Shown here in pieces: positions 9,077-23,237 of a DNA stretch of 42,070 nt (positions within the stretch are counted from its first letter, which is position 1; every line of letters begins with the position of its first letter). Source of the stretch: a virus; IMG/VR virus record IMGVR_UViG_3300028558_000046, positions 1-42,070 of that record; one strand, written 5' to 3'. Below the pieces are notes generated by a model, which was given only the letters and a program-made list of their open reading frames with translations, had not been told where the DNA came from and made no database searches. A program made the position numbers and the translations under genes.

Positions 9077-9949
9077 TTAGGAGTCCAGTCGTCGCTCGAG
9101 CCCGTACTTCTCGAGCATTTCTTTTGGTACTCGGCACGCAGGAGAGTCCAAATGCGGCCCGGCCTCTCGAGACCAATGACCGAATTTCTTGTAGCTGGTC
9201 AAAACGGCATCCCAATTCAGCCCTTCCGGCGCATCTGAAAAAGCTGCCGCGGCGTAATCGTGGAACCGCTGCTGGTTTAGCCAAGTGATCGCCTGCGGGA
9301 TGAATTTGCTTCCGATATTGCCTCGAGCTCCCTCCTCTCGAGCAAGGGCCGCCGCAGCAGATATCATCACCTCGGGGTCAACCCCGGTTTTCACCAAGGC
9401 GTTGAACTTCTTTTCGGCTGGCTGCCAAGGGTTCGCGCCATCGCGTCGGGGAAAGGCTGCCTTGAACCTCTTGAAATCCTCACTCGCTCGAGCCTGCGGC
9501 TTCGCAGGCGTCGGAATGCTTTCTTTTCCCTTCGGCTCCTTTTCCCCTCCCTTCCCCTCCAGGGCGATCTTTGGCAATTCCTCGCTAGGAATAGCTAGGG
9601 CTTTCGGTTGATCGCTAGGAGGAGCGGGGCAAACCTTATATTTGCTAGGATTATCAATCTTTTGGTGCTTTGCCCAACCTGTTATCTCAAAGAACTCTTT
9701 CCCTTCCACGGAATAGAATCTGATGAGCCCAATAGACCGGAGCTCCTCGAGCATGGCTTGGATATCATCCCCCGTGAAATTGTCCGCCGGCATAACCTGG
9801 GCTTTGATGGTGCGCGGAGCGATCGGGGCTCGCCCAAAGTCATCAACGAAATTCCACAGTCCGATGAAAAGCAGGCGCGTCACCGGCCCGCAGTCCATGA
9901 CCTGCTCACTTGTCCAAAATTCGGGTTTAATAGTGCGGATGCGGGCCAT
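9077..9949 (-). CDS. Replication initiator / replisome organiser protein
   Basis: The 290-residue protein begins MARIRTIKPEFWTSEQVM, the hallmark of phage replication proteins with an N-terminal winged helix. RLLFIGLWNFVDDFGRAP and the second half of the fold (MLEELRSIGLIRFYSVEG, then FFEITGWAKHQKIDNPSKY) follow. The middle is a Pro/Lys-rich linker. The C-terminus (residues 175-285) is helical and would recruit helicase or loader. I place the start at the ATG overlapping the stop of the preceding gene, not 45 bases upstream. The gene contains a putative origin (iterons) and seven of nine clustered CTCGAG sites, as lambda ori lies inside gene O. Confidence 0.82.
   Translation of the reverse strand: MARIRTIKPEFWTSEQVMDCGPVTRLLFIGLWNFVDDFGRAPIAPRTIKAQVMPADNFTGDDIQAMLEELRSIGLIRFYSVEGKEFFEITGWAKHQKIDNPSKYKVCPAPPSDQPKALAIPSEELPKIALEGKGGEKEPKGKESIPTPAKPQARASEDFKRFKAAFPRRDGANPWQPAEKKFNALVKTGVDPEVMISAAAALAREEGARGNIGSKFIPQAITWLNQQRFHDYAAAAFSDAPEGLNWDAVLTSYKKFGHWSREAGPHLDSPACRVPKEMLEKYGLERRLDS
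9540..9665. other. Putative replication origin: iterons, purine tract and AT-rich stretch
   Basis: Four GCTAGG(A/G) repeats start at 9584, 9594, 9614 and 9654, giving spacings of 10, 20 and 40 bases, so all face the same side of the helix. Next to them (about 9540-9562) is an almost pure pyrimidine strand, GGAGGGGAAGGGAGGGG on the other strand. The last iteron lies in AT-rich DNA. The block is inside the linker-coding part of the initiator gene, the arrangement of lambdoid origins. CTAG is a rare tetranucleotide in bacterial DNA, which makes four in 76 bases notable. Confidence 0.55.
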
Positions 9950-10137: not shown

Positions 10138-10382
10138 TAGTCGATCCCCAGCGTACCGCGATAGAGATCAATCATGGCCTCTCGAGATCGGCGCTTCTCC
10201 GCATCCTCGCGCTGCGCCCTGATGATCGCCCGCAAGGCGGGGATGTCGAAACCGTCAGATTTTGCTTCCGTGAACACATCCCGGATGTCGCCGGAAACCT
10301 CGTCCCGGTCGTCCATCAGCTTATTGATGCGCTCGACGATGCTTTTAAGCTGCTGGTTGCTGTTGTGGCCCGGCTCTGTCAT
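10137..10382 (-). CDS. gapR: GapR-like nucleoid-associated protein (DUF2312)
   Basis: The 81-residue protein matches the DUF2312/GapR family over its length. It has IVERINKLMDDRDEVSGDIRDVFTEAKSDGFD, then IPALRAIIRAQREDAEKR and a C-terminal helix IDLYRGTLG. In Caulobacter GapR forms tetramers that clamp overtwisted DNA ahead of replication forks and stimulates topoisomerases. A phage copy directly upstream of the initiator suggests support of phage replication or replacement of the host protein on phage DNA. The start overlaps the end of the nuclease gene by 38 bases. One CTCGAG site lies in its 3' part. Confidence 0.9.
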   Translation of the reverse strand: MTEPGHNSNQQLKSIVERINKLMDDRDEVSGDIRDVFTEAKSDGFDIPALRAIIRAQREDAEKRRSREAMIDLYRGTLGID

Positions 10383-10773
10383 CGCATTCCTCTTTGGTTT
10401 GGTTGGTGGGAACGCGATTGCTACTGTTATTTCTACGGAGGATTCCCCAGCACTCCAGGGTGATCAGGGCCTCGTCTAAACTTGATGCTGTCGCGACCGT
10501 CGCCCCGCATTCATCCATTGCTGCGAGCGTTAGCCTCTGGGACGGCGAGAGACGGCCACCAGAAGCCTTTAATTCCAGGGCATACAAACTGCCGCCCTTC
10601 AGAATTACGAGATCAGGGACGCCCGCACGGACGCCAAGGCCCTTGAATATCTTGGCCTCGATCATCGATCGCTTGCCCCCGTTCGGCGTATGCCAGAAGA
10701 ACACGCGCGGTTCGGCCCTTGCGTTCAGATGCAACACCACGGCCCGGTGAATATCTTGCTCCGGCCGCTTCAT
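10345..10773 (-). CDS. VRR-NUC domain nuclease
   Basis: The 142-residue protein is a stand-alone VRR-NUC (PD-(D/E)xK) nuclease. The order is PEQDIHRAVVLHLN, then WHTPNGGKR, then the catalytic centre VRAGVPDLVILKGGSLYALELK with Asp54, Glu67 and Lys69. In the family these enzymes act on branched DNA such as Holliday junctions or flaps. In the replication block it probably resolves recombination or replication intermediates before packaging. The start overlaps the stop of the upstream gene (ATGA). The C-terminal 25 residues beyond the domain overlap the GapR gene. Confidence 0.9.
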   Translation of the reverse strand: MKRPEQDIHRAVVLHLNARAEPRVFFWHTPNGGKRSMIEAKIFKGLGVRAGVPDLVILKGGSLYALELKASGGRLSPSQRLTLAAMDECGATVATASSLDEALITLECWGILRRNNSSNRVPTNQTKEECDDRAGPQQQPAA

Positions 10774-10970: not shown

Positions 10971-11110
10971 GCCGCCCTGCTCTTCTTTCGCAGCGCAATC
11001 ACGATCTCCATGACCTTGACGCGATGGCGCAATTTGTCACGTGATTTGGGATCGGCGCTTTTCAGGGCGCGCTTGTTGGCTTTCAACAGAGACCGAGGGG
11101 AGGGTTTCAT
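10967..11110 (-). CDS. Small basic protein (47 residues)
   Basis: A very basic helical peptide (KPSPRSLLKANKRALKSAD, then RHRVKVMEIVIALRKKSRAA). The start is set by the ATGA overlap with the end of the HNH gene; the upstream in-frame extension would overlap that gene further. The charge suggests nucleic acid binding. The function is unknown. Confidence 0.6.
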   Translation of the reverse strand: MKPSPRSLLKANKRALKSADPKSRDKLRHRVKVMEIVIALRKKSRAA

Positions 11111-11628
11111 GCGGTCCTCGCAAATTCGCCGAAATACTTGATCGCAGCGCAAGCGTAAGCATCATGGGCTTCTTCTGCGGTGTGGAAGTAGCCAAGGAAG
11201 ATCACGTTATCGCCGACCTTGATCTGCGTTCGCCATTTCTTGCCTTTGTGGCAAGCGTGGTAGTATGCGCCCTTGAGACCGGAACGATTGTTTGATTGAA
11301 CTTTCTTGTTCTGTTTTTGCTGGGAAGAGGTCGCTAGGCGTAAATTGCTGATCGCATTGTTTGAAGGATTGCCGTCGATATGGTCGATCTCGGCTCCGCC
11401 AATGGTCGGACCATAAATATAAATCCATGCCAATCGATGCGCGCCCATCTGATTAAACGGGCTTACCCCAATGAAAATGTAGCCGTTGCGTTTAGTCCCG
11501 GCGATATCGCCCGCCTTCATCCGGCCGCCAGTCGAACTCGGTTTTTTCCAACGGAAAATCCCGGTGACTTGATCGTAATCAAGCCACTCCCGAAGATGGG
11601 CTTGCGTGGGAAGCTTATTAGCGGTCAT
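11107..11628 (-). CDS. HNH homing endonuclease with AP2 DNA-binding domain
   Basis: The 173-residue protein has a short N-terminal recognition part (LREWLDYDQVTGIFRWKK). An HNH_3 nuclease core follows (AHRLAWIYIYG, EIDHIDGNPSNNAISNLRLAT) and then a C-terminal AP2-type domain (LKGAYYHACHKGKKWRTQI to HDAYACAAIKYFGEFA). Free-standing enzymes of this type cut an allele lacking them and spread by repair. It sits between DnaA-IV and the small basic protein, overlapping both, so its insertion does not break the operon. A paralogue lies in the tail region. Confidence 0.9.
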   Translation of the reverse strand: MTANKLPTQAHLREWLDYDQVTGIFRWKKPSSTGGRMKAGDIAGTKRNGYIFIGVSPFNQMGAHRLAWIYIYGPTIGGAEIDHIDGNPSNNAISNLRLATSSQQKQNKKVQSNNRSGLKGAYYHACHKGKKWRTQIKVGDNVIFLGYFHTAEEAHDAYACAAIKYFGEFARTA

Positions 11629-12223
11629 TGAGTATCTCCCGCTTTATCTCCTCGATGCTTTCAGCCAGCCCTTCTTGCCCGGCAGCGAGACGGGAATTTA
11701 TTCGCCGTATCGATGCGATTATAGTCGAGTGGTCTCGATCCATTCGCCGGCCGATTTCCGGCAGCGACCTCGTTGTCAATTCCTTGCAGAGATAAGCGGC
11801 GAGTTGGCGTGGCCGCACGACATCCTTATCGCGCCGCGGTGAAAGGATATCGTTCCGGGAGATGCCGTAATGATATGCGACGGCTTTGATGACATCTTCG
11901 ACCTGGATGGTGCGATGGGAGGCAGGTCCAAGATCCTTCTCGACACCAAACCACGGCGCCTTTTTGATCGGGATCGCCTTCTGCCGTTCCGCCCATGCCT
12001 TGATCGGGTCTGGCTTGCTGACCTGGACAGGCTCGTTGATCTCGACCGGCTCCGGTTCGATCGGAACAATCTCGACCGGCTCCGGTTCTTTCCCCTGCAT
12101 GAGTTCCGCGTGATGTTTCCTTAGCAGCGAAAGAAGCTGTGCCGATCCGTTCTTAGCTTTCTCGCAATAAAACCTGTCCTCATCCACTGCTGCGTGGTGA
12201 GGCTTGTCTAGCATATCAAGCAT
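11618..12223 (-). CDS. DnaA domain IV protein (DnaA-box binding, no ATPase)
   Basis: The 201-residue protein lacks the AAA+ ATPase and keeps only the DnaA C-terminal DNA-binding domain at residues 105-175. The order is TIQVEDVIKAVAYHYGIS, then VVRPRQLAAYLCKELT, then SLPEIGRRMDRDHSTIIASI. DHSTI at residues 165-169 matches the DnaA signature DHTTV. Residues 48-70 are a Pro/Glu/Val repeat linker, and residues 1-40 a separate helical part. It could compete with host DnaA for DnaA boxes, repress host initiation, or mark a phage origin. It lies early in the leftward replication operon. Confidence 0.9.
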   Translation of the reverse strand: MLDMLDKPHHAAVDEDRFYCEKAKNGSAQLLSLLRKHHAELMQGKEPEPVEIVPIEPEPVEINEPVQVSKPDPIKAWAERQKAIPIKKAPWFGVEKDLGPASHRTIQVEDVIKAVAYHYGISRNDILSPRRDKDVVRPRQLAAYLCKELTTRSLPEIGRRMDRDHSTIIASIRRINSRLAAGQEGLAESIEEIKREILNDR

Positions 12224-15374: not shown

Positions 15375-16196
15375 ATGAATATCGCCATTCGCAATTCGCA
15401 GGAAATCGCAGTCCGGCCTCCGCAGTTTGATGGAAGCCAGATCGATCTTATTAAACGGACTATTTGTAAGGGCGGCACCGACGACGAACTAAAGATGTTT
15501 CTGCATCAGGCAGAACGTACCGGCCTCGATCCGCTAACCCGCCAGATTTACGCGGTGAAGCGCTTCGACTCGCAGGCCGGCCGCGAGGTTATGTCAATTC
15601 AGGTTAGCATTGACGGTTTCCGCCTGATTGCCGAGCGCACGGGCAAGTATGCCGGTCAGGTTGGCCCGTTTTGGTGCGGACAGGACGGTCAATGGTGTGA
15701 CGTATGGTTAGCTGATGCGCCTCCGGTAGCTGCGCGGGTTGGTGTCATTCGCAGCGACTTCAAGGAGCCATGCTGGGGCGTTGCCAGATTCAAGTCCTAT
15801 GCCCAAACCAAGAAGGACGGCACCCCGACCCGCATGTGGGCGGTTATGCCCGACGTGATGCTGGCAAAGTGCGCCGAAAGTCTCGCGCTGCGCAAGGGCT
15901 TCCCGCACGAACTAAGCGGCCTTTATACCAGCGACGAAATGGGACAGGCCGCTGATGACCGGGCGGCGCCGACTTATGAACGCGCTCCCGATTATGACGC
16001 AATAACCGGGGAAGTGTTTTCGCCGGCCGCAAAGATAACGGCGGAACAAGTTGCGGCAATTGTCGGTCTCTGCGACGAAATCGGTGTCGATAAGCAAGCC
16101 TTCTGCAATTATTTCAAGGTCAACGGCATCGCGGAGCTTCCGGCGAAGGCTTTCGACCGAGCTATCACTGCTCTCAATAAGAAGAGGGCAAAGTGA
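15375..16196 (+). CDS. bet: Bet/RecT-family single-strand annealing protein
   Basis: The 273-residue protein matches phage Bet/RecT annealases: [59 protein letters not shown], and [23 protein letters not shown] followed by [14 protein letters not shown]. It pairs complementary single strands made by the exonuclease encoded just downstream. Residues 200-273 are a variable C-terminal extension ([20 protein letters not shown]) like those that recognise single-strand binding protein in related proteins. The stop overlaps the exonuclease start. Confidence 0.92.
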
Positions 16197-16831
16197 TGGA
16201 TCAGATCGTTCAAGGCTCTGTCGAATGGAAGCAGTTGCGCCTTGGCCGCGTTACGGCGTCCCGCGTTTCGGACATCGTTGCCAAGACCAAGAGCGGCTAC
16301 AGCGCCAGCAGGGCGAACTATGCTGCCCAGCTTATCGCGGAGCGCCTGACGGGTACGCCGGCAGAGTCGTTCACTAACGCAGCGATGCAGCACGGGACGG
16401 AGACAGAACCAGAGGCGCGGGACGCCTATTGCTTCTATCAGGGCGTGACGGTCGAACAGGTCGCCTTTGTACCGCATCAGAAGATCGATCAGGCCGGGTG
16501 TTCCCCCGACGGCCTGGTTGGCGATGACGGCTTGGTCGAGATCAAGTGCCCCCAGACTGCTACACATCTGGAAACACTGCTCGGCCAAGCCGTGCCCGCC
16601 AAGTACGAGACGCAGATGCAGTTTCAAATGGCATGTACCGGCCGCCAATGGTGCGATTTCGTATCTTACGATCCTCGGATGCCGGAAAACATGCGCCTGT
16701 TCGTCAAGCGCGTTCCTCGGGATGACAAGCGCATTGCCGAACTGGAAGCCGAAATCGCATCGTTCCTTTTGGAACTGGCTGTCAAACTATCACAGCTAAC
16801 TAGCCTCTACGGTTTGCAGGAAGCCGCCTGA
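16196..16831 (+). CDS. YqaJ-type (lambda Exo-like) recombination exonuclease
   Basis: The 211-residue nuclease has GSVEWKQLRLGRVTASRVSD at the N-terminus, HGTETEPEARDAY as the conserved acidic helix, and the PD-(D/E)xK centre CSPDGLVGDDGLVEIKCP with Asp105, Glu115 and Lys117. QMQFQMACTGRQWCDFVSYD follows. It resects double-strand ends 5' to 3' and hands the strand to the annealase encoded upstream. The ATG overlaps the previous stop (TGATG); a GTG one codon earlier is possible. The C-terminus is slightly shorter than lambda Exo (226). Confidence 0.92.
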   Translation: MDQIVQGSVEWKQLRLGRVTASRVSDIVAKTKSGYSASRANYAAQLIAERLTGTPAESFTNAAMQHGTETEPEARDAYCFYQGVTVEQVAFVPHQKIDQAGCSPDGLVGDDGLVEIKCPQTATHLETLLGQAVPAKYETQMQFQMACTGRQWCDFVSYDPRMPENMRLFVKRVPRDDKRIAELEAEIASFLLELAVKLSQLTSLYGLQEAA

Positions 16832-19780: not shown

Positions 19781-19981
19781 ATGAATAATAAAGAACTTAT
19801 CCAGTTCGCAGAGTACTACCTCGCGAACAATGCGGCCGAGAGCGGAACCGATGAGCTTATCAGAATGCTTGTGGCTGCTCTTAGGAAGCGGAATTTGACT
19901 GACATTCATACTCCGTTCCTAAAGCAGCCCGCGTGGTGCGGACACTGCGGAGGGACATGCCAATGCGGGGAGTACGAATGA
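19781..19981 (+). CDS. Small protein with C-terminal Cys cluster
   Basis: A 66-residue protein, helical at first (NNKELIQFAEYYLANNAAES), ending in WCGHCGGTCQCGEYE, where four Cys and one His could hold one zinc. GTG at 19772 is an alternative start. ATGA overlap with the methyltransferase gene suggests coupled translation. Confidence 0.6.
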   Translation: MNNKELIQFAEYYLANNAAESGTDELIRMLVAALRKRNLTDIHTPFLKQPAWCGHCGGTCQCGEYE

Positions 19982-20685
19982 CCCGCAAAGAGACCTTGGC
20001 GGAAGGCGTGACGCTATATCTGGGCGATTGCCGGGAGATATTGCCGACGCTTGGCAAGGTGGATGCTATTATTAGTGACCCTCCCTATGGCATTAAACAC
20101 AACGGTACGCGTAGCCCAAAAAGCAGCATCAGTTCAACTGGAAGGCGCCAGTCTAAGATTTCGATTGTCGGAGATAATGATCCATTCGATCCAGCTCCAT
20201 TCTTGGAGTCATCTTCTGTTGCCTGCTTTACAGGTGCCCAGCATTTTGCAGAACGCTTGCCGGGTGGCACCTATCACGTTTGGAATAAACGCGGTCCCTA
20301 TGACCCTTTGCACCAGTCGGATGGTGACTTGATATGGATCAGCGGAGAAAAGAGGGCCTTGCGAATAGTGGACTTGGTATGGCGCGGGATATGCCGCACT
20401 ACTGAGAATGCGGACCAAATAGTCCATCCGACCCAAAAGCCTGTAGCCCTTATGGACTGGTGTATTAGATGGATCGGCCCCAAGGCAATCGCGATTGTTG
20501 ATCCCTTCATGGGGAGCGGGACAACCGGCGTTGCTGCCGTCAAGCTCTCCCGTAAGTTTATCGGGATTGAGATTAGCCCGGCTTATTTCGACATCGCCTG
20601 CAAGCGCATCCAAGCCGCGCTAGACGCGCCTGACATGTTCATTGAGACACCCAAATCCGCGAAGCAGGAGGCTTTCGAACTATGA
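19978..20685 (+). CDS. DNA methyltransferase, N6-adenine/N4-cytosine class (beta order)
   Basis: The 235-residue enzyme carries the catalytic motif SDPPYG (Asp34-Pro-Pro-Tyr37) before the cofactor motif DPFMGSGTTGVAAV near the C-terminus. This order is that of beta-class enzymes such as CcrM. HPTQKPVALMDWCI and FIGIEISPAYFDIACKRI complete the family signature. It uses S-adenosylmethionine to methylate adenine N6 or cytosine N4. No restriction gene is adjacent, so it is an orphan, probably protecting phage DNA or altering regulation. The CcrM-type C-terminal domain is absent. Confidence 0.92.
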   Translation: MTRKETLAEGVTLYLGDCREILPTLGKVDAIISDPPYGIKHNGTRSPKSSISSTGRRQSKISIVGDNDPFDPAPFLESSSVACFTGAQHFAERLPGGTYHVWNKRGPYDPLHQSDGDLIWISGEKRALRIVDLVWRGICRTTENADQIVHPTQKPVALMDWCIRWIGPKAIAIVDPFMGSGTTGVAAVKLSRKFIGIEISPAYFDIACKRIQAALDAPDMFIETPKSAKQEAFEL

Positions 20686-20870
20686 CCGATGAAGAAATCG
20701 CGGGTAAGCTTAGGGTTGCTCTTTGGCACATGGTCGATTGCTTCAAGCCGTTTACGATGAAGCCGATGGGCGCGCCCGGAAGCGTCGCCCGCTTGGAGCA
20801 AGAACAGCAGATTGCGGCGCACAAGCGGGCCAAGGAGGCTCTCGCGCTCTCTCAGGCGGAACGCTCATGA
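20682..20870 (+). CDS. Hypothetical 62-residue protein
   Basis: An acidic start (MTDEEIAGKLRVALWHMVDC) and a long charged helix (SVARLEQEQQIAAHKRAKEA). ATGA overlaps at both ends place it inside the methyltransferase operon. The function is unknown. Confidence 0.6.
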   Translation: MTDEEIAGKLRVALWHMVDCFKPFTMKPMGAPGSVARLEQEQQIAAHKRAKEALALSQAERS

Positions 20871-21040
20871 CTCTTAAAGAAAAAGCAAAAGCTTATCGAA
20901 AGTTAGCGAAAAACCGCGCAGAGCTGGCATCCAGGTATGCAAAGGCAAAACAATATGAGAGAGCCGCGAGGTGGTATATGGCCGCAGATAATTTCATGAG
21001 GATTGCTGCTGAATTTTCCAGCCCGCGCCGTCATCGGTAG
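20867..21040 (+). CDS. Small basic helical protein (57 residues)
   Basis: MTLKEKAKAYRKLAKNRAEL followed by ASRYAKAKQYERAARWYMAA forms one long basic amphipathic helix with a TPR-like look. ATGA overlap fixes the start. The function is unknown. Confidence 0.6.
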   Translation: MTLKEKAKAYRKLAKNRAELASRYAKAKQYERAARWYMAADNFMRIAAEFSSPRRHR

Positions 21041-21050
21041 ACAAGACCCC

Positions 21051-21647
21051 ATGACAATCGGGCTATTCGGAAAGCAAGAGCGAACACCAAGCATCGGTAA
21101 TCACGAGCGCTCGCTCGCGGCTGGTTCCGATGAATGGATAACCCCAAAATGGATCGTGGACGACCTCGGCCCGTTCGATTTGGATCCATGCGCCGCCGTT
21201 GTTATGCCGTGGAGGACCGCAGATAGATCCTTTACCGAGATAGACAATGGCCTTTTTCAAAGATGGGAGGGGTTCGTTTGGATGAACCCTCCCTATGGGA
21301 CAGCAACCAGCGAATGGCTAGGCCGGATGGCAGAGCACAACAACGGTATAGCCCTCATATTTGCCCGCACGGAGACGGAGATGTTTTTTAAGTATGTTTG
21401 GGGTAGGGCTGCCGCCCTCCTTTTCCTGAAAGGACGTGTTCACTTCCACCGCCGCGACGGCGCTATCCCATCTTCAAAAGGTAAGGCCGGTAGCGGAGGA
21501 CCAGGGGCGCCATCTGTCCTAGTAGCCTATGGTGACATCGCAAGATCGCGTCTTGAGCGTCTGAGCGGCAAGGGATCATTTGTAACCGCTTGGGCTACTT
21601 CGGCGTCTCAGGCCCAACGCGATAGCAATCCGTCAGTCAAACCGTAG
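21051..21647 (+). CDS. Dam-family phage DNA N6-adenine methyltransferase
   Basis: The 198-residue protein matches the phage Dam family (PF05869 type): SDEWITPKWIVDDLGPFDLDPCAA for cofactor binding and FVWMNPPYG as the catalytic NPPY motif. LIFARTETEMFFKYVWGRAA and LFLKGRVHFHRRDG follow, then PSVLVAYG. It methylates adenine. I chose the internal Met (MTIGLFGKQE) because the longer frame overlaps the previous gene. It is the second methyltransferase of this operon and has no partner nuclease. Confidence 0.9.
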   Translation: MTIGLFGKQERTPSIGNHERSLAAGSDEWITPKWIVDDLGPFDLDPCAAVVMPWRTADRSFTEIDNGLFQRWEGFVWMNPPYGTATSEWLGRMAEHNNGIALIFARTETEMFFKYVWGRAAALLFLKGRVHFHRRDGAIPSSKGKAGSGGPGAPSVLVAYGDIARSRLERLSGKGSFVTAWATSASQAQRDSNPSVKP

Positions 21648-21666: not shown

Positions 21667-21930
21667 ATGACGATGCCGGCAGAACAAACGCTCGAACGCG
21701 AAAAGGACAAGCTGTACCTTACGGACGCAGAGTTGATCCGGCGTATTGGCGTGCCGGAACGGACTATGCGGTCCATGCTTCCGGGCTTGGAAACGAAGTA
21801 CGGATTCCCCAAAAAGTCCCCTTTATTCGGGGGAAGGCGCTATTGGCCGGCTGTGAAAACTTGGCTGGACAAGCACAACGGGCTTACAGTGGACCCGCTA
21901 ACTTCCCACTCAAAGAGGGTCCTGCGATGA
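21667..21930 (+). CDS. Excisionase-like / MerR-type small DNA-binding protein
   Basis: The 87-residue protein has LYLTDAELIRRIGVPERTMR, then LETKYGFPKKSPLFGGRRYWPAVKTWLD. This is a winged helix of the excisionase/AlpA kind in which GGRRYWP forms the wing. It lies directly upstream of and overlaps the integrase gene, so it is the best candidate for the directionality factor. A second Met two codons later is an alternative start. Confidence 0.75.
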   Translation: MTMPAEQTLEREKDKLYLTDAELIRRIGVPERTMRSMLPGLETKYGFPKKSPLFGGRRYWPAVKTWLDKHNGLTVDPLTSHSKRVLR

Positions 21931-23237
21931 CCGATGAACGAGAGCCTCCCGTGCTGGGCCTGCCTGCGCCTGGTCTCGTCTGGAGGAAGCGGAAAGACGG
22001 CTGGGTTGCGACCTGGCAGGCGCGCACCGATCGCATCAAGGATGGATACCGGCCCAAATATGTCCCGCTCTGGTCCGGCGCCGAACTGACCGAAGTCGAA
22101 GCCGTAGATATCTCCACGCGCTGCCAGCACCAGCAATATGACATGCTGACATTCGGCCGAGAGTTGCCGCCGGAGCCTAAGCCAGAACCGCCCGGCTTCC
22201 ATGGCACGATACGGTCGCTCGTGCATTGCTACCGCAACGACCCGGATTCGCCGTACCAAAAGAACCGCTATCACGTCCGGCAAAACCGAGACAGCATGCT
22301 AGGCCGCATCGTGACCCGCCATGGTGATGTGTCTCTAACCGAGATCAAGGCGCGCGTTCTGTTGGCCTGGCACAAGGACTGGAGCCACGACGGAAAGAAG
22401 CTCGCCACGGGATCCGCTTTCATCGGCCAGCTACGCGCCCTTTTCAGCTTTGGCGCGACATTGATCGAAGATCCGAATTGCGAGCGCCTATGCGGCGTCA
22501 TGCACAAGATGCGCTTCCCCGGTACGAAAGCTCGCGAAGTGAGCCTAACAGCCGAACAGGCCAATGCTATCCGGGCCACGGCACATGCTGAGTTCGGCTG
22601 GCACTCGGTCGCCTTGGTGCAGGCATTCCAGTTCGAGGGGACAATGCGCCAGAAGGACGCGATTGGCGAATATGTGCCGATATCGGAGCCCGGCGTTTCT
22701 GCCGTCATCCATCGCGACCGGAAATGGCTGCGGGGCATCGTCTGGCAGGAGATCGATGAGAACCTTATCCTGAGACACGTCACCAGCAAGAAGCAAAAGT
22801 TGGCCGTCATTGACCTGAAGCTGGCGCCGATGGTGATGGAGGAATTGCAGCGGCTTGTCGGCAAAGAACCGCTTGTCATGGTCGATGAGGTCACCAAGAA
22901 GGTGACGGTCAACCGGCATCTGCTGCCGGCCTCGGGGCCGATCGCCATCTGCGAGACCAACGGGTTGCCCTGGTTCGCCACTGAGTACCGCCGCAAATGG
23001 CGCAGGATAGCGCGCAAGGCCGGCGTGCCCGATGACGTATGGTCGATGGATAGCCGCTCAGGGGCCATCTCTGAGGCTATACAGGCCGGCGCCCCCATCG
23101 AGTTCGTGCGTCACGCTGCAACCCATAGCGACGTTTCACAGACTGCGGACTATGACCGGAGCCAAGCAGAGGCCACGGCCAAGGTCATGCGGATGCGGAT
23201 GGAAGGCCGGAACAAACCCAAACCGGGTAATGACTGA
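21927..23237 (+). CDS. int: Tyrosine integrase
   Basis: The 436-residue recombinase has an N-terminal arm/core-binding half and a catalytic half. Visible catalytic residues are Arg at about 240 (FEGTMRQKDAIGEY), Arg377 in MDSRSGAISEAIQAG, His400 in RHAATHSDVSQTADYDR and Tyr409, the nucleophile, nine residues after it. The first His of the HxxR box is replaced by Met, as often seen in alphaproteobacterial phage integrases. It integrates phage DNA at attB through the attP that follows the gene. The start is fixed by ATGA overlap with the excisionase-like gene. Confidence 0.95.
   Translation: MTDEREPPVLGLPAPGLVWRKRKDGWVATWQARTDRIKDGYRPKYVPLWSGAELTEVEAVDISTRCQHQQYDMLTFGRELPPEPKPEPPGFHGTIRSLVHCYRNDPDSPYQKNRYHVRQNRDSMLGRIVTRHGDVSLTEIKARVLLAWHKDWSHDGKKLATGSAFIGQLRALFSFGATLIEDPNCERLCGVMHKMRFPGTKAREVSLTAEQANAIRATAHAEFGWHSVALVQAFQFEGTMRQKDAIGEYVPISEPGVSAVIHRDRKWLRGIVWQEIDENLILRHVTSKKQKLAVIDLKLAPMVMEELQRLVGKEPLVMVDEVTKKVTVNRHLLPASGPIAICETNGLPWFATEYRRKWRRIARKAGVPDDVWSMDSRSGAISEAIQAGAPIEFVRHAATHSDVSQTADYDRSQAEATAKVMRMRMEGRNKPKPGND

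Follow-up and report, generated by a model that had tools for sequence, protein, structure and literature searches.

Does the linker-coding part of a replication initiator gene also hold the origin at which the phage starts its replication? This question is raised by a 42,070-nt stretch of viral DNA (IMG/VR record IMGVR_UViG_3300028558_000046; the whole stretch is called the window here), in which a cluster of short repeats lies inside such a gene. To our knowledge, the origins of most temperate phages are unmapped, a few models excepted. The initial annotation had taken the segment for the phage origin, and this view is supported by frozen codons in the closest relative, by phased iterons and a purine ladder throughout the family, and by iterons that follow the N-terminal domain of the initiator. 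Judged from sequence, we consider it highly probable (about 0.85) that the CCTAGC iterons and the purine ladder constitute the replication origin inside the initiator gene.

The initiator gene and the elements in its linker

The elements are listed with their window coordinates; L002 is the closest relative.

9077 to 9949, minus strand: replication initiator gene, 290 aa, with N-terminal winged helix, disordered linker and C-terminal DnaD/primosome-like domain
9662 to 9949, minus strand: part coding the N-terminal winged helix, by prediction the likely iteron binder
9631 to 9661, no strand assigned: AT-rich block, candidate unwinding element on the iterons' far side from the purine tract
9644 to 9649, plus strand: iteron 1, GCTAGG, coding strand TCCTAGCAA; within the AT-rich block; unchanged in L002
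9614 to 9619, plus strand: iteron 2, coding strand TCCTAGCGA; absent from L002
9594 to 9599, plus strand: iteron 3, coding strand CCCTAGCTA; one change in L002
9584 to 9589, plus strand: iteron 4, coding strand TCCTAGCGA; unchanged in L002
9561 to 9568, minus strand: C-rich junction ATCGCCCT, corresponding to the TCACCCCC box of the family
9519 to 9560, minus strand: purine tract, of which 9541-9560 is GGAGG GGAAG GGAGG GGAAA, a ladder of GGANN pentamers
9492 to 9509, minus strand: short hairpin GCCTGCG-AAGC-CGCAGGC directly past the purine tract, role uncertain

Profile matches assign the encoded protein to phage replication initiation protein families (PHROG 2149, 6.7e-36; PHROG 1408, 3.3e-35), and no Pfam family was matched at E up to 0.01. 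The N-terminal winged helix covers residues ~1-96 and the linker ~97-153, followed by the C-terminal domain. By profile, the C-terminal part resembles DnaD-like loaders and primosomal proteins, with residues 129-234 matching a DnaD-like helicase loader (4.7e-9). AlphaFold predicts a confident winged helix at about residues 10-90 (N-domain pLDDT ~90 or more), a disordered stretch at 117-153 (linker pLDDT below 50) and a helical C-terminal part of moderate confidence. A Foldseek comparison with solved structures returned mostly winged-helix DNA-binding proteins with weak E-values, headed by 4pql (E 0.014), which we take to be a RepA_N N-terminal domain, and continuing with CodY, BlaI, MecI and Fur types. 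From this model we infer that the N-terminal winged helix binds the iterons. The repeats had been placed in the linker-coding part of the initiator gene, and this is correct: iterons, junction, tract and hairpin all lie in the DNA that codes the disordered stretch and the residues just preceding it.

On the coding strand CCTAGC occurs four times, at plus-strand positions 9584, 9594, 9614 and 9644 of the 42-kb window. The repeats had been described as GCTAGG(A/G), which is their plus-strand form; because the initiator gene is on the minus strand, the coding-strand form is (T/C)CCTAGCNA and the purines are those of the minus strand. Sequence, number and stretch of the repeats hold as described, and so do the positions of three copies, but the fourth is at 9644 and not at 9654. 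Thus, the first two spacings of 10 and 20 bp stand, and the third is 30 instead of 40. Helical phasing is approximate, with offsets of 0, 10, 30 and 60 against a 10.5-bp turn. The iterons at 9584, 9614 and 9644 have a common codon frame and code Pro-Ser; the one at 9594 is read in another frame as Ala-Leu-Ala. Across the 42 kb only two hexamers have four non-overlapping copies within 72 bp, and CCTAGC is one of them. When the protein was kept and its codons were resampled by the phage's own usage, none of 20,000 synonymous recodings had four CCTAGC in the linker, and any hexamer reached four copies within 72 bp of the linker in 9 of 2000.

Both flanking elements noticed initially were found beside the repeats. 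The purine-only run comprises 25 nt (9536-9560) on the coding (minus) strand, and the AT-rich stretch at 9631-9661 contains 30-bp segments, starting at 9631-9636, that rank in the lowest 0.1% of the 42 kb for stability. The window has just one GGANN x4 ladder, which is at 9560 and adjoins the iterons. The AT-rich block is far less stable than the purine tract, whose stability is about average; the tract is therefore no obvious melting site in this phage, and stability gives no support to the ladder as the melting site of the window. Perfect stems of at least 6 bp are found at the hairpin site in 25% of the relatives against ~5% elsewhere. Present in only a quarter of relatives, the hairpin was rejected as an essential part.

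The closest relative, L002, has an N-domain 83% identical to that of the window. It keeps the first and last iterons exactly, carries one change in the third and has lost the second; the start of the GGANN ladder is kept, and an unbroken run of ~30 bp of the AT-rich block, spanning iteron 1, is identical. Among conserved residues, codons are identical between window and L002 at 26 of 32 positions in the linker, compared to 29 of 69 in the N-domain upstream (Fisher p = 2.4e-4). Conservation of the repeats at synonymous positions, named beforehand as a check of the origin reading, is thus seen in this one close relative. L002 is the sole close relative of the CCTAGC class, and one of the four copies is lost in it. 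An exact 15-mer scan of viral contigs gave 74 stretches, with an initiator encoded only on L002's own contig, and no closer relative of this class appeared in a profile scan and in ~780 genomes from one taxonomic class and one order.

A layout common to related initiator genes

Relatives of the N-domain were gathered from viral contigs, genomes and a phage collection, and 122 non-redundant genes were retained. These 122 relatives share a linker layout of palindromic iterons in exact 11-bp register, a C-rich junction and a coding-strand GGANN purine tract. More than a hundred genes of related phages and prophages have the layout in common, with differing binding-site sequences. Among cultured relatives, it is present in phage Butters, for which Mycobacterium smegmatis is a laboratory host. 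In 114 of the 122, the N-domain is followed within 0-220 nt by the start of the longest purine segment on the coding strand; a uniform distribution would give 27%. Within a fixed window past the N-domain, 77% of Gly codons are of the purine form (GGA/GGG) against 36% elsewhere, and 41% of Arg codons (AGA/AGG) against 15%. Since Gly and Arg codons switch to purine forms only there, the purines are chosen at the DNA level.

In the iteron region, autocorrelation peaks at lags of 11 and 22, in the tract at 5, 10, 15 and 20, and in a control region at none. The family iterons, mostly TCGNCGA, are spaced in pairs by 11 (128 pairs), 22 (83), 33 (63) or 44 (31) bp, also by 55 and almost never by other distances, and 411 of 535 GGA-to-GGA steps are 5 nt. 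In 79 genes, the last iteron and the first GGA are separated by 19, 30, 8 or 41 nt, all of which are 8 modulo 11, and iterons and ladder therefore share one register. Between the two, TCACCCCC is the commonest box, and a TCACCCCC/GGA junction is present in 27 genes. GGANN x4 ladders were found in the linkers of 71 of 121 relatives and twice elsewhere in the 765 kb of strand searched. Periods and spacings repeat in 23 held-out genes. Neither 5 nor 11 is divisible by three, so protein coding alone cannot yield such steps. Among the relatives, no other part of the mid-gene region stacks as weakly as the ladder, and a strong C-rich clamp borders it toward the iterons. A G-quadruplex was considered and discarded, as the two-tetrad patterns in 93 of 110 tracts follow trivially from GGANN.

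The window has the ladder after the iterons in common with the family, in the form of the single GGANN x4 ladder at 9560. TCGNCGA iterons in 11-bp register were not found in it; CCTAGC on a 10-bp grid takes their place. The window is a divergent variant of the origins composed of 11-bp iterons and a GGANN ladder. Residue 41 is His in 68 of 74 TCGNCGA genes, Ala in the window and L002, and Leu or Met in five TCANTGA genes; because small iteron classes follow phylogeny, it is only a lead to a specificity residue.

L161 and L138 show textbook layouts, in which about eight iterons at most precede the tract without a break in the 11-bp register. In L217 the purine tract lies ~250 nt further along than in its family, and the DNA between N-domain and tract appears to code an HNH-type segment.

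Other initiator families show how the modules combine. The C-terminal domain of the window is 65% identical to that of L003, and the N-domain family of L003 has no detectable profile similarity to that of the window (probability 0.3%). This second family has 30 non-redundant members with GCTAGC-like iterons 11 bp apart that lead directly into an AGAGA/AGAGAC tract. The iteron of the window had been called unlike any that could be named, which is right for the exact hexamer, but GCTAGC iterons are used by the second family. In a third family (L300-L306), GAAACGTTTC or GTAACGTTAC-type iterons are followed by CCCCC and a CAGANA tract; the N-domain of this family may be distantly related to the window's N-domain family (probability 78%). 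The window and L002 have N-domain and iterons in common and differ in the C-domain; L003 has the window's C-domain, but the iterons of its own family. These sharing patterns indicate that the iterons stay with the N-domain as C-domains are exchanged. A nearly identical hairpin (GCCTGCGAAG[C/G]CGCAGGC) is found in the window and in L003, at the joint before the shared C-terminal domain; in L003 it likewise lies directly past the purine tract.

A further candidate origin layout is that of the MARARNIKP-type initiators (L012-L014, L017, L018, L220-L299), whose linker DNA contains CTGATTC/CCTTAAC heptamer repeats that are rich in pyrimidines on the coding strand, with dyads upstream. An R-loop model was rejected as not general: in most relatives the purines are on the coding strand, but the MARARNIKP-type genes and L004 have pyrimidine-rich repeats there.

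The proposed origin and its alternatives

According to the origin reading, the N-terminal winged helix would bind the phased CCTAGC iterons on roughly one face of the DNA, and this phasing would let several initiator molecules form a single complex. Such a nucleoprotein complex may strain the adjoining DNA until the strands open, either at the GGANN purine ladder, the element shared by the family, or at the opposite end, where this phage has its AT-rich block. The C-terminal DnaD/primosome-like domain could then recruit the replicative helicase. This is probably the host's, because the 20 window ORFs that were scanned showed neither a helicase nor a loader. The disordered linker would mainly be a by-product of origin coding. 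Against the reading count the 10-bp grid of the window's iterons, compared to 11 in the family, the single close relative of the CCTAGC class with its lost copy, the average stability of the purine tract and the course of the GC skew. The cumulative GC skew, proposed initially as a further check, does not turn at 9.6 kb. Its minimum lies near 15 kb and coincides with a switch in gene direction, and skew was set aside as uninformative. An oriC-type, DnaA-dependent origin was dismissed as well: the window has 13 near-matches to DnaA boxes where 16.7 are expected, hence no enrichment, and none occurs between 7530 and 10800.

Three other explanations have to be weighed. The least improbable, though we consider it unlikely, is that the iterons are an operator through which the initiator or another DNA-binding protein represses its own operon, with replication starting elsewhere. 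Iteron-binding initiators can autoregulate, as is generally known, and spacing alone cannot separate an operator from an origin. An operator, however, needs neither a purine ladder in fixed register nor a conserved AT-rich block, a repressor would be badly placed ~300-370 bp into the gene, and lambda O and pSK41 rep have origins at the equivalent place. The iterons of an origin could also serve as an autoregulation operator.

Still less probable, in our estimate, is a recombination boundary, at which repeats, tract and hairpin would be kept as the joint for swaps of N- and C-terminal modules. The C-domain (65%) and the near-same hairpin shared with L003 next to different N-domains, the N-domain and iterons shared with L002 next to different C-domains, and the enrichment of hairpins at the joint would all suit such a boundary. 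It leaves unexplained, however, the phased iterons, which differ in sequence between N-domain families, and the exact register of iterons and ladder, and swapping is equally expected if N-domain and origin travel together, as is reported for pPR9 and the PLE satellites. Equally slight, and already largely refuted, is the chance that repeats and purine run are coding by-products of a low-complexity Pro/Ser and Glu/Gly/Lys linker in favoured codons: three iterons do code Pro-Ser in a single frame and the linker is E- and G-rich and predicted to be disordered, but the recodings never gave four copies (0 of 20,000), the family's 5-nt ladder and 11-nt iteron steps ignore the triplet, the shift of Gly and Arg to purine codons is limited to the linker region, and codons are frozen between window and L002.

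Known systems and wider meaning

As a single locus, an intragenic origin is of a known kind, with precedents in lambda O and RepA_N plasmids. In lambda, the origin lies in the middle of the initiator gene O (PMC7466680, PMC5043065), and the purine asymmetry of its tract is published (PMC5043065). With the same script, the longest purine segment of our lambda O control mapped to 609-656 of L179; the annotated iterons, at 535-619, immediately precede it. The likeness thus consists of a mid-gene origin, repeated initiator sites and a subsequent tract with purine asymmetry in coding direction; the window has repeats in the initiator gene beyond coding need, an adjoining purine-asymmetric tract and an AT-rich block. 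Unlike lambda, with 18-bp iterons 20-24 bp apart, the window has sites that measure ~6-9 bp and follow a 10-bp grid (11-bp in the relatives), and the lambda tract is AT-rich, whereas that of the window's family is a GC-containing GGANN ladder. No homology of the initiator to lambda O was detected by BLASTP (E = 11), and its PHROG matches are other initiator families.

In RepA_N plasmids (pSK41), the boxes bound by the N-terminal winged helix lie mid-gene in rep, the linker that the origin encodes is dispensable, and the C-terminal domain contacts the replication machinery; in pPR9, N-domain and origin are swapped for a phage-like one (PMC5703833). The initiator of the window may be arranged similarly: a winged helix and a disordered linker are predicted, the C-domain is DnaD-like by profile, and the best, though weak, structural match of the model is 4pql (E 0.014). 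A RepA_N Pfam domain was not found in it at E up to 0.01, and RepA_N replicons are Gram-positive AT-rich plasmids, unlike the window. We know of no GGANN ladder in RepA_N plasmids.

In PLE satellites, the N-terminal DNA-binding domain of RepA covaries with the iteron-holding origin and the conserved C-terminal domain recombines separately (PMC8263062). Here as in the window, the DNA-binding domain pairs with its iterons and the C-domain is separate, but PLE has three semi-palindromic iterons of ~30 bp in intergenic position, whereas those of the window are intragenic. The unwinding module of bacterial oriC combines a DnaA box and DnaA-trios (PMC10797057) and is similar in that double-stranded initiator boxes adjoin a ladder of short repeats in fixed orientation. 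The differences are units of 3 nt compared to 5 nt in the window's ladder, and an AAA+ initiator with DnaA boxes; the initiator of the window is not AAA+, and the window shows no enrichment of DnaA boxes.

Of wider interest are the sequence rule of the family and the common purine ladder, a layout for which we found no description in the open-access full-text literature searched, subscription journals being mostly outside this search. The rule, namely 11-bp-register iterons, a C-rich junction and a purine ladder in the initiator linker, would locate origins directly from sequence in many phages and prophages and would match initiators to their sites. The ladder would be a testable, GC-tolerant alternative to the textbook AT-rich melting element. 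Tentatively, the GGANN (or AGAGAN/CAGANA) ladder might even be a single-strand element read by the initiator or the helicase loader, equivalent in phages to the DnaA-trios; several initiator families whose DNA-binding domains differ would each have combined it with phased iterons, and the initiator gene would then be a portable cassette of binding domain, matching iterons and common opening ladder.

A VRR-NUC nuclease gene (10345-10773, minus strand) and an HNH endonuclease gene (11107-11628, minus strand) lie just upstream of the initiator, and the same gene block contains a 201-aa protein (11618-12223, minus strand) with the DnaA C-terminal box-binding helix-turn-helix (Pfam 4.5e-26). Adjacent genes for a RecT-like annealing protein and a RecE-like exonuclease are found at 15375-16831 on the plus strand. 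Two DNA methyltransferase-like genes and a probable integrase gene (19933-21647 and 21843-23237, both plus strand) point to a temperate phage.
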